Source: Streptococcus sp. DD12 (lineage in GTDB: Bacteria; Bacillota; Bacilli; Lactobacillales; Streptococcaceae). From it: a DNA stretch of 64,000 nt. The notes under the pieces were generated by a model. The model saw nothing but the letters and a program-made list of their open reading frames with translations, ran no database searches and was not told where the DNA came from. This document shows positions 2,748 through 36,499 of the stretch, one piece after another; within the stretch, counting starts at the first letter, position 1, and each line of letters opens with the position of its first letter. A program made the translations under genes and the position numbers. The stretch is taken from the NCBI RefSeq assembly GCF_001578885.1, contig NZ_KQ969495.1:217512-281511 (forward strand). The letters run 5' to 3'.

Positions 2748-3626
2748 ATGTTACAAGAGTTACAAACTGATTACATGGTTCAAGAGTATTTGCCTGCTGG
2801 TATCCGGATTTTTCGAGAGTCTGATTACCGTTACGTGATTCCTAGTTGGCATCAAGCGATCGAAGTTAACTGTACTTTGGATGGCCATATTGATGACTTT
2901 TATGTCAATGGTCAGCCACACAGTCTCCCTCAAGAAAAACTTTTGGTCATCAATGCTTTTGAAGTGCATAGTGTCAAAAGTCATAAGGAAGATGACTTTA
3001 AGGCCTTGTCCTTGAGTTACCCTTATGCATTTGTGAAAAGCCATTTCCCTGATATTGATGAGTATTATATTGCCATTGATGGCAAGGATGGTTTAGATGC
3101 CAAACAAAAAGCAGCTTATAGCTACATTCGTGAGAAATGTTTGGCGATTGTTAAACTTTACGAAGAAGACAGCCCGACACGAAGTGTCAAAATTTCTGTT
3201 TTGCTCTTGGAAATTTTAGATTTGCTTTTGACTTACTTTTTGGTTAAGCGCGAACAAAGTTTGGCGCTTAGTCGCGATGACAAGGCCATGCAACGCTTGA
3301 TGGACATTACCGACTTTGTGGCCAAGAATTATCAAGGGGACATTAGTTTAGATAGCTTAGCCGAACGGTATTTTCTTTCAAAGGAATACCTAGCCCGCTT
3401 TTTTAAAGCACATATGGGTGTGACTTTGGGGAATTACATTACGGCTGTGCGTGCTGATAAGGCGCGTGAAGCCATCCGTTTGGGTTATGGCAAAACCTTC
3501 ACAGAAATTGCAAAAAGTTGCGGTTTTTCTGGATTGCGTACCATGGATCGTGCTTTGCAAAAGGCTTATGGCATGACGGCACGGGAAATCAAAAAGAAAT
3601 TACTCCAAGTTGAAAAGACAGCTTAA
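2748..3626 (+). CDS. AraC-family transcriptional regulator
   Basis: 292 residues. The N-terminal 130 residues look like a cupin-type sensor (WHQAIEVNCTLDGHIDDFYVNG). The C-terminal 100 residues form the AraC double helix-turn-helix: SLDSLAERYFLSKEYLARFFK for the first motif and TFTEIAKSCGFSG for the second. The ATG at 2748 follows an AAAGAGG-like ribosome site. The ligand and target genes are unknown; the upstream gene is separated by a terminator and the downstream gene is convergent, so no operon partner hints at its role. Confidence 0.85.
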   Translation: MLQELQTDYMVQEYLPAGIRIFRESDYRYVIPSWHQAIEVNCTLDGHIDDFYVNGQPHSLPQEKLLVINAFEVHSVKSHKEDDFKALSLSYPYAFVKSHFPDIDEYYIAIDGKDGLDAKQKAAYSYIREKCLAIVKLYEEDSPTRSVKISVLLLEILDLLLTYFLVKREQSLALSRDDKAMQRLMDITDFVAKNYQGDISLDSLAERYFLSKEYLARFFKAHMGVTLGNYITAVRADKAREAIRLGYGKTFTEIAKSCGFSGLRTMDRALQKAYGMTAREIKKKLLQVEKTA

Positions 3627-9518: not shown

Positions 9519-9547
9519 TTGACAAATTTAAGCGCTTACATTATACT
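9519..9547 (+). promoter_or_regulatory. Promoter of the RYKNGD peptide array with internal cre-like site
   Basis: TTGACA (9519-9524), a 17-bp spacer and TATACT (9542-9547) form a near-consensus sigma-A promoter. The spacer carries TTTAAGCGCTTACA (9527-9540), which fits the CcpA operator TGWAANCGNTNWCA at every fixed base but the second. A cre in this place normally means repression by CcpA when sugar is plentiful. Transcription should start near 9554, 34 nt before the first peptide start. Confidence 0.85.
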
Positions 9548-9587
9548 ATAGGTGTCAATAGGAAAGGAACATAAAGGAGGAAACTCT

Positions 9588-9629
9588 ATGATAAAAACAC
9601 CTATTGCTCGGTATAAAAACGGAGACTAA
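9588..9629 (+). CDS. RYKNGD peptide 1 (13 aa)
   Basis: MIKTPIARYKNGD. ATG at 9588 with AAGGAGG (9574-9580) 7 nt upstream, an excellent ribosome site. The peptide stops directly after the shared core RYKNGD. First of five peptides in the same transcript. No signal sequence, no cysteine, net positive charge. No homologue is recognised; function unknown. Confidence 0.8.
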   Translation: MIKTPIARYKNGD

Positions 9630-9691
9630 AGGTCTGTCGTCATAACTATCCAGTTCACTGTTATCAGGATTTCTCAAGGAGGCGCATACTT

Positions 9692-9739
9692 ATGACAAAT
9701 ATGGGGCGCTATAAAAACGGTGACACAGTCGCCACCTGA
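9692..9739 (+). CDS. RYKNGD peptide 2 (15 aa)
   Basis: MTNMGRYKNGDTVAT. ATG at 9692, AAGGAGG (9676-9682) 9 nt upstream. The core is encoded CGC TAT AAA AAC GGT GAC, different from peptide 1 only at third positions. It is in another reading frame than peptide 1, so the two cannot be parts of one protein. Function unknown. Confidence 0.8.
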   Translation: MTNMGRYKNGDTVAT

Positions 9740-9773
9740 AACACTTTAAATAAGGGGTAGGAGGACTTGTCCA

Positions 9774-9818
9774 ATGACACTACATATCTCTCGGTACAAA
9801 AATGGAGACACCAAATAG
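9774..9818 (+). CDS. RYKNGD peptide 3 (14 aa)
   Basis: MTLHISRYKNGDTK. ATG at 9774, AGGAGG (9759-9764) 9 nt upstream. Core codons CGG TAC AAA AAT GGA GAC. The start lies 82 nt after that of peptide 2. N- and C-terminal flanks are unlike those of its neighbours. Function unknown. Confidence 0.8.
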   Translation: MTLHISRYKNGDTK

Positions 9819-9857
9819 ACAGTAGGCATGTGTTGGCTTTCATTAGGAGGTAGCGAT

Positions 9858-9920
9858 ATGTTGGGAAATTTAGGACGCTACAAAAACGGAGACTCTAATA
9901 ACTGCATTGTCCCTCAATAA
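9858..9920 (+). CDS. RYKNGD peptide 4 (20 aa)
   Basis: MLGNLGRYKNGDSNNCIVPQ, the longest of the set and the only one with a cysteine. ATG at 9858, TAGGAGG (9844-9850) 7 nt upstream. Core codons CGC TAC AAA AAC GGA GAC. The start lies 84 nt after that of peptide 3. Function unknown. Confidence 0.8.
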   Translation: MLGNLGRYKNGDSNNCIVPQ

Positions 9921-9926
9921 GACGAT

Positions 9927-9945
9927 GGAGGTTAGTCCAATGTAA
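9927..9945 (+). other. Start-stop minimal ORF with strong ribosome site
   Basis: GGAGG (9927-9931) is followed 8 nt later by ATG TAA (9940-9945). The start falls 82 nt after that of peptide 4, where the next unit would be expected. The context GGAGGttagtccaATG resembles that of peptide 3. It is either a decayed unit or a start-stop element that primes translation of peptide 5, whose own ribosome site is weaker. Confidence 0.45.
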
Positions 9946-9981
9946 TCCCATAGAGACAAAACAGATGAGCGAGGTATCTTT

Positions 9982-10029
9982 ATGCTACAATTCACTGTCA
10001 GTCGGTACAAAAATGGAGACAGCTACTAG
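9982..10029 (+). CDS. RYKNGD peptide 5 (15 aa)
   Basis: MLQFTVSRYKNGDSY. ATG at 9982 with only GAGG (9971-9974) as ribosome site. Core codons CGG TAC AAA AAT GGA GAC, the same as peptide 3. It is in a third reading frame. Function unknown. Confidence 0.75.
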   Translation: MLQFTVSRYKNGDSY

Positions 10030-10052
10030 ATTTCTTCCTTATGAGTTGAAAT

Positions 10053-10084
10053 GGAGGTGGCCATTGAACAACGAAACAACTTAA
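10053..10084 (+). other. Possible terminal unit with TTG start, lacking the core
   Basis: GGAGG (10053-10057) is followed by a TTG at 10064 opening six codons (MNNETT) and a stop. The TTG lies 82 nt after the start of peptide 5, keeping the spacing of the array, and its surroundings resemble the start-stop unit at 9927. It lacks RYKNGD. It may be a degenerate last unit or not translated. Confidence 0.25.
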
Positions 10085-10113
10085 AAGACGAGAGTGTGCA
10101 CTCGTCTTTTTTT
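10084..10113 (+). terminator. Terminator of the RYKNGD array
   Basis: AAAGACGAG (10084-10092) pairs with CTCGTCTTT (10101-10109), followed by more T. It ends a transcript of about 560 nt that holds only the small peptides. Confidence 0.9.
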
Positions 10114-10134
10114 GTGTTCTCTTTTTTGGCTGAC

Positions 10135-22755: not shown

Positions 22756-22769
22756 AGACAAGGTTTTGA

Positions 22770-22910
22770 ATAAAACTGACCTAAGACAGTAGGGGAACGC
22801 TTGTTCATAAGATTCCTACCGAGGCACAAAACGTTTATGATCTAATAACGTATTGTACTTTCGTGTCTGGGTTTGGATACGATTTTTTTCGTTCCAGCCA
22901 AAATTTTAAC
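22770..22910 (+). promoter_or_regulatory. L10 leader of rplJ-rplL
   Basis: The untranslated leader contains the family pattern ACCTAAGACAGTAGG ... CCTACCGAGGC and further paired segments ending just before the rplJ ribosome site. In Firmicutes this RNA binds the L10(L12)4 complex and lowers expression of its own operon. Confidence 0.85.
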
Positions 22911-36382: not shown

Positions 36383-36398
36383 TAATAGAATAACTCAT

Positions 36399-36499
36399 TC
36401 ACAAGGAGTGCTTTATGCTGAGACCGCCCTGGCGGAATCCTTACCACCTGATCTCGTTAATACGAGCGTAGGGATGTGATGCCTAGGGGCTCCTTGTGA
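36399..36499 (+). promoter_or_regulatory. TPP riboswitch upstream of thiT
   Basis: The thi-box is complete: CTGAGA (36418-36423), ACCTGATCTCG and TACGAGCGTAGGGA. The outer stem is TCACAAGGAG (36399-36408) with CTCCTTGTGA (36490-36499), followed by C and six T, so the aptamer's own closing stem looks like a terminator. ACAAGGAG is repeated as the thiT ribosome site at 36509-36516 and could compete for CTCCTTGT. TPP binding is expected to switch thiT off. Confidence 0.95.
36415..36471 (+). other. Possible 18-codon ORF inside the TPP aptamer
   Basis: AAGGAG (36403-36408) in the 5' arm of the closing stem is followed 6 nt later by ATG and 17 more sense codons, ending in TAG in the aptamer's last conserved box. 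The ATG context is nearly the same as that of thiT. Whether it is translated is unknown; the conserved aptamer sequence alone could create it by chance. Confidence 0.2.

Follow-up and report, generated by a model that had tools for sequence, protein, structure and literature searches.

The hexapeptide RYKNGD is encoded five times, in five separate micro-ORFs of 13 to 20 residues, within a stretch of 64,000 nucleotides of Streptococcus sp. DD12 that was analysed as a whole (hereafter the window). The same core recurs in tandem arrays in other streptococci and as single copies in Bacillota, where it commonly precedes a gene for an exported-looking protein. We tentatively favour the view that RYKNGD would act inside the ribosome, pausing it through the conserved core of leader-type micro-ORFs.

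The five micro-ORFs lie on the forward strand, in three different frames, between the genes of enolase (eno) and of serine dehydratase alpha and beta (sda), a location given by the earlier note with which the Pfam matches agree. Each has a ribosome site, AGGAGG for the first four and GAGGT for the fifth. Micro-ORF 1 (MIKTPIARYKNGD, 9588..9629, core 9609-9626) encodes MIKTPIA-RYKNGD, in which the core is terminal, and micro-ORF 2 (MTNMGRYKNGDTVAT, 9692..9739, core 9707-9724) encodes MTNMG-RYKNGD-TVAT. Micro-ORF 3 (MTLHISRYKNGDTK, 9774..9818, core 9792-9809) gives MTLHIS-RYKNGD-TK, micro-ORF 4 (MLGNLGRYKNGDSNNCIVPQ, 9858..9920, core 9876-9893) MLGNLG-RYKNGD-SNNCIVPQ, and micro-ORF 5 (MLQFTVSRYKNGDSY, 9982..10029, core 10003-10020) MLQFTVS-RYKNGD-SY. 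The unit has its own promoter (TTGACA and TATACT separated by 17 nt, 9519..9547, plus strand, 11 of 12 consensus matches) and its own intrinsic terminator (10083..10114, plus strand), a hairpin at 10083-10110 whose arms form a perfect inverted repeat of 10 bp (10083-10092/10101-10110), with a run of T after it, and the unit terminates ahead of a gene on the opposite strand. The description in the earlier note of five tiny ORFs with ribosome sites, promoter and terminator was thus confirmed. The 18-nt core pattern was found five times in the window and never in 100 window shuffles, and its matches in the whole genome are these five copies only. All 12 first and second codon positions are the same among the five cores, copies 3 and 5 being the same in DNA; as only third positions vary, selection acts on the peptide. 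A broken or frame-split gene, which the earlier note had also dismissed, was rejected because each ORF is served by a separate start and ribosome site and because the same layout recurs in relatives.

Some further features were seen in and around the unit. Near the 3' end of the window array (10050-10080), and also in L067, L071, L113 and L136, a strong ribosome site is followed 5–8 nt later by AUU or a similar non-start (by eye); this is a possible site of unproductive 30S binding. Elsewhere in the window, Rfam identified a ribosomal L10 leader (22762-22897) and a TPP riboswitch (36394-36491).

The promoter spacer holds a cre-like sequence, ATTTAAGCGCTTACA (9526..9540, plus strand), a predicted CcpA site that matches 12 of 13 consensus positions and that the earlier note had missed. 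In all 36 multi-copy arrays with enough upstream sequence (that of L118 was too short), the promoter spacer contains a cre-like site scoring at least 10 of 13, and in 34 of the 36 the score is at least 11. As controls, 25 of 221 other promoter-like sites of the same loci scored 10 or more; among random stretches of like size, 9% scored at least 10 and 1.4% at least 11. The arrays therefore show the overlap of cre and promoter that is characteristic of the CcpA regulon, and control of the arrays by CcpA is predicted on this basis. For three streptococcal loci, those of S. ovuberis, S. merionis and S. moroccensis (L113, L136 and L170), the automatic search returned poor promoters with cre scores of 8–9, and a cre-like promoter was seen by eye further upstream. 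In these loci one RYKNGD ORF lies near the start of a long stretch, possibly a structured RNA, that has conserved blocks (by eye) and no other clear gene; the ORF scan found no exported-protein gene behind these single copies.

Of 284 Streptococcus genomes, 104 contain a match to the core pattern and 61 have two or more matches on the same strand (a few of the counted pairs being on different contigs), as compared with 2 of 284 that have two or more for the reversed pattern. Since the pattern also accepts Ser (AGY) in place of Arg, both the 104 and the 61 include some SYKNGD matches in longer genes. The earlier note had staked its claim on the presence of the motif in related genomes, and the motif was indeed there. 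Up to eight matches were found per strand. Among the matches listed, the named carriers include at least S. equinus, S. gallolyticus, S. uberis and S. vestibularis, and further S. thoraltensis, S. henryi, S. devriesei and S. ferus; the array counts take in loci from the same or near-identical genomes (e.g., L079 and L139). Arrays are typically located beside mutY and/or ahead of rpsF-ssb-rpsR: one or both of the corresponding protein clusters were in view at 39 of 44 array loci, the families being confirmed on L071 only. The eno/sda position of the window array is an exception, and the unit is therefore autonomous. Array ORFs include the core variants RYSNGD, RFKNGD, RYRNGD and RLKNGD, from which R and N-G-D emerge as the firmest part. 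Outside the genus, no array was found in 324 other genomes of the order; G396 alone of these had two matches on one strand, which are separate micro-ORFs ∼1.3 kb apart. Frameshifts, which the earlier note would have counted as refuting if they broke the core in relatives, do occur outside it: in the streptococcal loci L013 and L066 (∼position 1501) the ATG is one base off, leaving ELVTIPD-RYKNGD-V without a start, and the core itself is kept. Two observations concern the surroundings of individual arrays. In L072 a signal peptidase S26 gene (PF10502) lies downstream of the array in place of rpsF, and the same gene is deduced for L076, L083 and L164 from clusters common with L072, PF10502 having been tested in L072 only. 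In L069, a yjdF/azaaromatic riboswitch (Rfam, 76.5 bits) lies on the minus strand at 3141-3241.

Between micro-ORFs 4 and 5 of the window lies an AUG-stop unit, ATGTAA (9940..9945, plus strand), with a GGAGG ribosome site, which the earlier note had overlooked. Such units are translation events without a peptide product, and they are recurrent in arrays: an ATGTAA or ATGTAG unit lies 13–23 nt past the stop of a RYKNGD ORF in 19 of the 38 loci examined (two of which are one genome), and a pattern fitted to the unit had no match in 676,843 bases of sequence beyond the arrays. The unit follows a predicted hairpin (9888..9938, plus strand, inner stem CATTGTC/GACGATG, −14.1 kcal/mol, z −1.86 in the window), in which UCC ahead of the AUG-stop unit is the pairing partner of the core 4 Gly codon. 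In most single folds of relatives, the Gly codon of the preceding core likewise pairs with CC before the AUG-stop, and tail codons pair with the ribosome-site region; the inner stem of the window hairpin differs from theirs, the layout being similar. In an alignment of 21 of the 24 segments found in 28 chosen loci, 77.3% of the cells pair, compared with at most 46.8% when the structure is shifted along, and covariation is seen between the third position of the Gly codon and the base opposite (A-U 8, U-A 4, U-G 1, not paired 8). Of 500 shuffles, 7 reached the number of pair types, 17 the percentage paired, 31 the covariation score and 78 the number of pairs in which both sides change. RNAalifold predicted no pairs on this alignment, so the hairpin rests on the single folds and on counts made for a structure drawn from one member of the set itself; for these two reasons the covariation support is moderate. 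Conservation of the tail as a peptide was rejected, as the TLxYCxK tail found in one array ORF is conserved as RNA, within the hairpin, and its region is read in another frame in L069, L121 and L190.

Past the last ORF, a conserved motif that the earlier note had also missed, CCTTATGA (10038..10045, plus strand; ACTCCTTATGA in relatives, anti-Shine-Dalgarno-like), was found: CTCCTTA or CCTTATGA is present in 24 of 36 multi-copy arrays, the background of CCTTATGA in these loci being 0.018 per 420 nt on average. This CTCCTTATGA-type motif is complementary to ribosome sites. Specific pairing with the first ribosome site was tried and rejected: it looked strong in the window fold, yet it does not co-vary (swap test by permutation over 22 arrays, p 0.23). 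A globally structured RNA was likewise rejected (whole window transcript, z −0.72), and Rfam returned no family at gathering score for the window array or the loci scanned, the weak matches being far below cut-off.

Single copies were collected by a scan of named-species genomes (among the matches listed) and by whole-genome searches of 20 of those genomes. Of 99 candidate short frames, 20 lacked an ATG preceded by a ribosome site and were set aside, which left 79 in 72 loci. Among the matches listed, single copies come from Anaerococcus, Peptoniphilus, Peptostreptococcus, Parvimonas, Finegoldia, Tissierella, Granulicatella, Gemella, Catonella, Lachnospiraceae, Eggerthia, Erysipelotrichaceae, S. 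pneumoniae and S. mitis, with MNYKNPQ-RYKNGD and MIYLNPQ-RYKNGD as typical peptides. All accepted micro-ORFs among these matches are from Bacillota, the matches in other phyla being in longer frames or lacking a ribosome site; in the viral collection six stretches had a match, with a micro-ORF of the RYKNGD kind in L036 only. Each of the 20 genomes has between 1 and 10 core matches (ten and nine in two of them), and where copies are many they are scattered, with a single copy in each operon, as is usual for cis elements.

The position of the single copies is that of leaders. In 55 of the 79, an ORF of at least 50 codons preceded by a ribosome site starts at most 260 nt downstream, and 54 of these 55 downstream ORFs look exported, i.e., have an N-terminal signal- or anchor-like stretch by a crude hydropathy rule under which signal peptides and membrane anchors are indistinguishable. 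With the same rule applied after the ends of 274 other genes in these loci, 41 of 137 ORFs looked exported; this control repeats the micro-ORF search rule and is fairer than the gene-by-gene control, in which 77 of 256 single genes of at least 100 codons looked exported. Upstream neighbours of single copies looked exported in 15 of 31 cases. The contrast of 54/55 with 41/137 was confirmed on re-counting and left our probabilities for the different readings unchanged. For the remaining 24 of the 79, no ORF of this kind lies within reach downstream, in some cases because too little sequence was available. The gap between micro-ORF and exported-type gene has a median of ∼56 nt.

The downstream products are largely unrelated, and 5 of 25 reach a Pfam cut-off: lactococcin 972 in L159, DUF6973 in L088, CHAT in L161, and C39/C70 peptidase-like proteins in L248 and L263. 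The lactococcin 972 gene of L159 is followed by a 664-codon ORF and then an ABC ATPase (protein incomplete) whose best NCBIfam match, below cut-off, is the lactococcin 972 exporter; the best match of the ATPases of L160 and L084, also below cut-off, is a lantibiotic-protection transporter. The label “bacteriocin-like” fits some single-copy loci, not all. Several other neighbours were recorded. A small membrane-like protein is encoded next in several single-copy loci (by eye), and the two that were scanned matched no Pfam family. A lone, small XRE-type regulator (∼75–80 residues) lies directly upstream in L036, where Pfam confirms it, and by eye in L102, L159, L166, L197 and L201; that of L159 and L166 ends in a Cys-containing tail. 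In L066 a lactococcin 972-like gene follows the ORF (by eye) and its counterpart in L013 looks cut short, while a peptide gene ending LDVGKAD, presumably PhrA-like, precedes the RYKNGD ORF of L066.

Constraint on the peptide starts a few residues before the Arg, with Asn found at −3 in 96 of the 138 ORFs in arrays and in 64 of the other 87 (totals that take in ORFs too short to have this position), and it ends at the Asp: the 138 array ORFs continue with a stop (44 times) or with 12 different residues, and the non-array ORFs with 17 different residues or a stop. Tails past the Asp vary in length and sequence in array ORFs, in keeping with the differing flanks described in the earlier note. ORFs with RYKNGD are 9–39 residues long. 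The Met lies exactly 7 codons before the Arg in 97 of 138 array ORFs; the corresponding count for single copies is biased, since the named-species scan demanded an ATG at that distance. Codon use within the core is also skewed. Rare NGG Arg codons are over-used, in 50 of 129 cores in streptococci (14% expected) and in 50 of 67 elsewhere (20% expected), as is GGA (65% versus 26% in streptococci, 70% versus 40% elsewhere), these biases being counted as they stand over copies of shared ancestry.

How might a micro-ORF of this kind act? According to the explanation that we tentatively favour, each would encode a short peptide of the leader type, the last six conserved residues of which would pause the translating ribosome, presumably at the Asp; candidates for such pausing include the window micro-ORFs 1–5 and MNYKNPQRYKNGD. 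In single-copy operons, the parked ribosome may tune the translation or the stability of the exported-protein mRNA. The streptococcal locus would consist of five pausing ORFs behind one predicted promoter that opens once preferred sugars run out, and in such gene-less arrays paused and start-stopped ribosomes may keep the RNA protected or ribosome-loaded. A metabolite, a drug or a state of the ribosome could be the trigger. Constraint that ends at the Asp and leaves the tail free is what a nascent-chain signal would predict, because it is read before the tail exists. The leader position, this indifference past the Asp and the rare-codon bias favour a pausing nascent peptide over a free binding peptide, and the leader position, the free tails and the AUG-stop units suggest that the translating ribosome or the mRNA is what the micro-ORFs affect. 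An attenuator of the occlusion type was tried and found unsupported: pairing of the ribosome sites that follow single copies does not exceed that of controls (unpaired 0.53 versus 0.48, p 0.06), nor does pairing of those in arrays or of AUG-stop units (0.37–0.39 versus 0.38), so that a classical occlusion switch is not supported. Two further findings count against pausing, namely that the window array lacks a gene that it could control in cis and that the sharp Met spacing at 7 is explained at least as well by a free ligand. The shared ancestry behind the codon bias, the 24 single copies with no downstream ORF, the z of −0.72 for the window transcript and the absence of RNAalifold pairs in the hairpin alignment weigh on the same side. 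On account of the occlusion result, the missing gene and the Met spacing we hold to pausing with reserve and allow a free micropeptide a smaller, still appreciable share of the probability.

The earlier note had read the array as a family of intracellular micropeptides with a shared binding motif. The family and its shared core stand, and the free binding peptide lost ground to the AUG-stop units, the leader position and the free tails. As such a peptide the RYKNGD core would bind one conserved cytosolic partner, the array being a dosage device for the ligand and the single copies delivering the same ligand together with exported proteins. This would fit a peptide core that is perfect in three frames with free synonymous change, the strong ribosome sites, the Met spacing peak and a window unit that is autonomous with its own promoter and terminator. 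However, no gene for such a partner was seen to accompany the arrays, whose neighbours are mutY and/or rpsF-ssb-rpsR at 39 of 44 loci and eno/sda in the window; one copy per operon, upstream of an exported protein, is needless for a ligand acting in trans; the C-terminal tails are arbitrary; and AUG-stop units make no peptide. We regard this alternative as rather unlikely, and two others as more improbable still. The RNA could be the precursor of a regulatory RNA whose ORFs control only stability or folding, the functional portion being the 3' region that holds the CTCCTTATGA motif. The presence of CTCCTTA or CCTTATGA in 24 of 36 arrays, the long single-copy transcripts of L113, L136 and L170 without an exported-protein gene behind them (ORF scan), and the moderate covariation of the hairpin agree with such a role, but the arrays have no Rfam family at gathering score, no covariation was seen between the 3' motif and the first ribosome site (p 0.23), and the conservation of the peptide and the single copies before exported proteins are left unexplained. 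Equally improbable is a leaderless signal peptide that leaves the cell, is re-imported and is sensed, even though short unprocessed ORFs lie beside some bacteriocin-like operons, an RNPP-type regulator (PF18768, 32.1 bits, above cut-off) lies 374 nt upstream of the RYKNGD ORF in L084, and a PhrA-like peptide gene (by eye) lies ahead of the ORF in L066. The leaderless peptide of S. pyogenes is hydrophobic, unlike the charged and hydrophilic RYKNGD core. As the earlier note had stated, no receptor gene adjoins the window array: Pfam identifies eno and sda there and no RNPP (RopB/Rgg-type) receptor. PMC10518010 describes leaderless communication peptides (LCPs) as widespread in Firmicutes and as having distinct peptide codes, whereas the RYKNGD core is invariant across classes of Bacillota.

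Like the LCPs read by RopB, RYKNGD micro-ORFs are unprocessed and found in Firmicutes, streptococci included, but LCPs have RopB-type receptors (PMC10518010), and for the invariant RYKNGD core an RNPP neighbour is confirmed in L084 only. No described family was encountered in the searches made, as the earlier note had expected: Rfam yielded no known structured RNA at gathering score, RYKNGD had no match in the 5.39 million open papers searched, and other literature searches gave nothing on the locus. Operons of the lactococcin 972 type (PF09683, TIGR01653, TIGR03608) follow some single copies, with the lactococcin 972 gene above the Pfam cut-off in L159 and weak, below the NCBIfam cut-off, in L158; a RYKNGD micro-ORF was not found as a described part of such operons in the literature searched, and, unlike them, it also precedes unrelated exported proteins. 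In plants, AUG-stop minimal ORFs stall ribosomes (NIP5;1). The bacterial units resemble these in that a start is immediately followed by a stop, so that the initiating ribosome is expected to be affected, but they differ in having a strong Shine-Dalgarno and a hairpin formed partly of RYKNGD codons.

The Drosophila gene tarsal-less/polished rice (tal/pri) specifies one transcript with several ORFs of ∼11 residues that have a common invariant motif and no cleavage precursor. RYKNGD arrays are similar in that several separate ORFs with one invariant short motif (five in the window, up to eight on one strand in relatives) lie on what promoter and terminator predict to be one transcript. In contrast to these bacterial arrays, tal/pri is eukaryotic and acts in trans on a ubiquitin ligase, and we know of no leader-type single copies of it before other genes. 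ErmBL and ErmCL are ribosome-arrest leader peptides upstream of a regulated gene, and the single copies share with them the micro-ORF size, the C-proximal constraint on the nascent chain and the position directly upstream of a gene. However, the next ribosome site is not occluded, and no resistance gene was seen to follow; to our knowledge, tandem arrays without a downstream gene are not known among arrest leaders. Judged as attenuation leaders, 55 of 79 single copies are suitably placed within 260 nt of an ORF with a ribosome site, the window array ends in a terminator instead, and a sequestered ribosome site was seen neither in single-copy loci nor in arrays. Because for tal/pri and for leader peptides alike a defining feature failed or is at most presumed, we place RYKNGD with neither. 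The invariance of the core over such a distance, the tandem arrays without a structural gene and their pairing with AUG-stop units are new. The streptococcal arrays together with the single copies ahead of exported-looking proteins suggest a new micropeptide family.

That RYKNGD is a universal nascent-peptide brake of Bacillota before exported, often bacteriocin-like proteins, and in streptococci also forms a catabolite-controlled, protein-less RNA for parking ribosomes, is a wider proposal that we consider doubtful. If true, the ribosome-parking RNA would be made of tandem brakes and AUG-stop units, and it would be a bacterial counterpart of polycistronic smORF genes that acts on the ribosome and not on a protein partner. 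If RYKNGD is instead a free ligand, the array would be a bacterial polycistronic micropeptide gene, for which we know of no precedent. The retention of RYKNGD across classes of Bacillota speaks for an old and general target, most simply the ribosome, and ORFs this small are likely skipped by standard gene finding. As an arrest motif it would be a new one, with natural variants at hand for structural work, and it would mark small exported, partly bacteriocin-like operons that are otherwise hard to find and whose products mostly match no known family.
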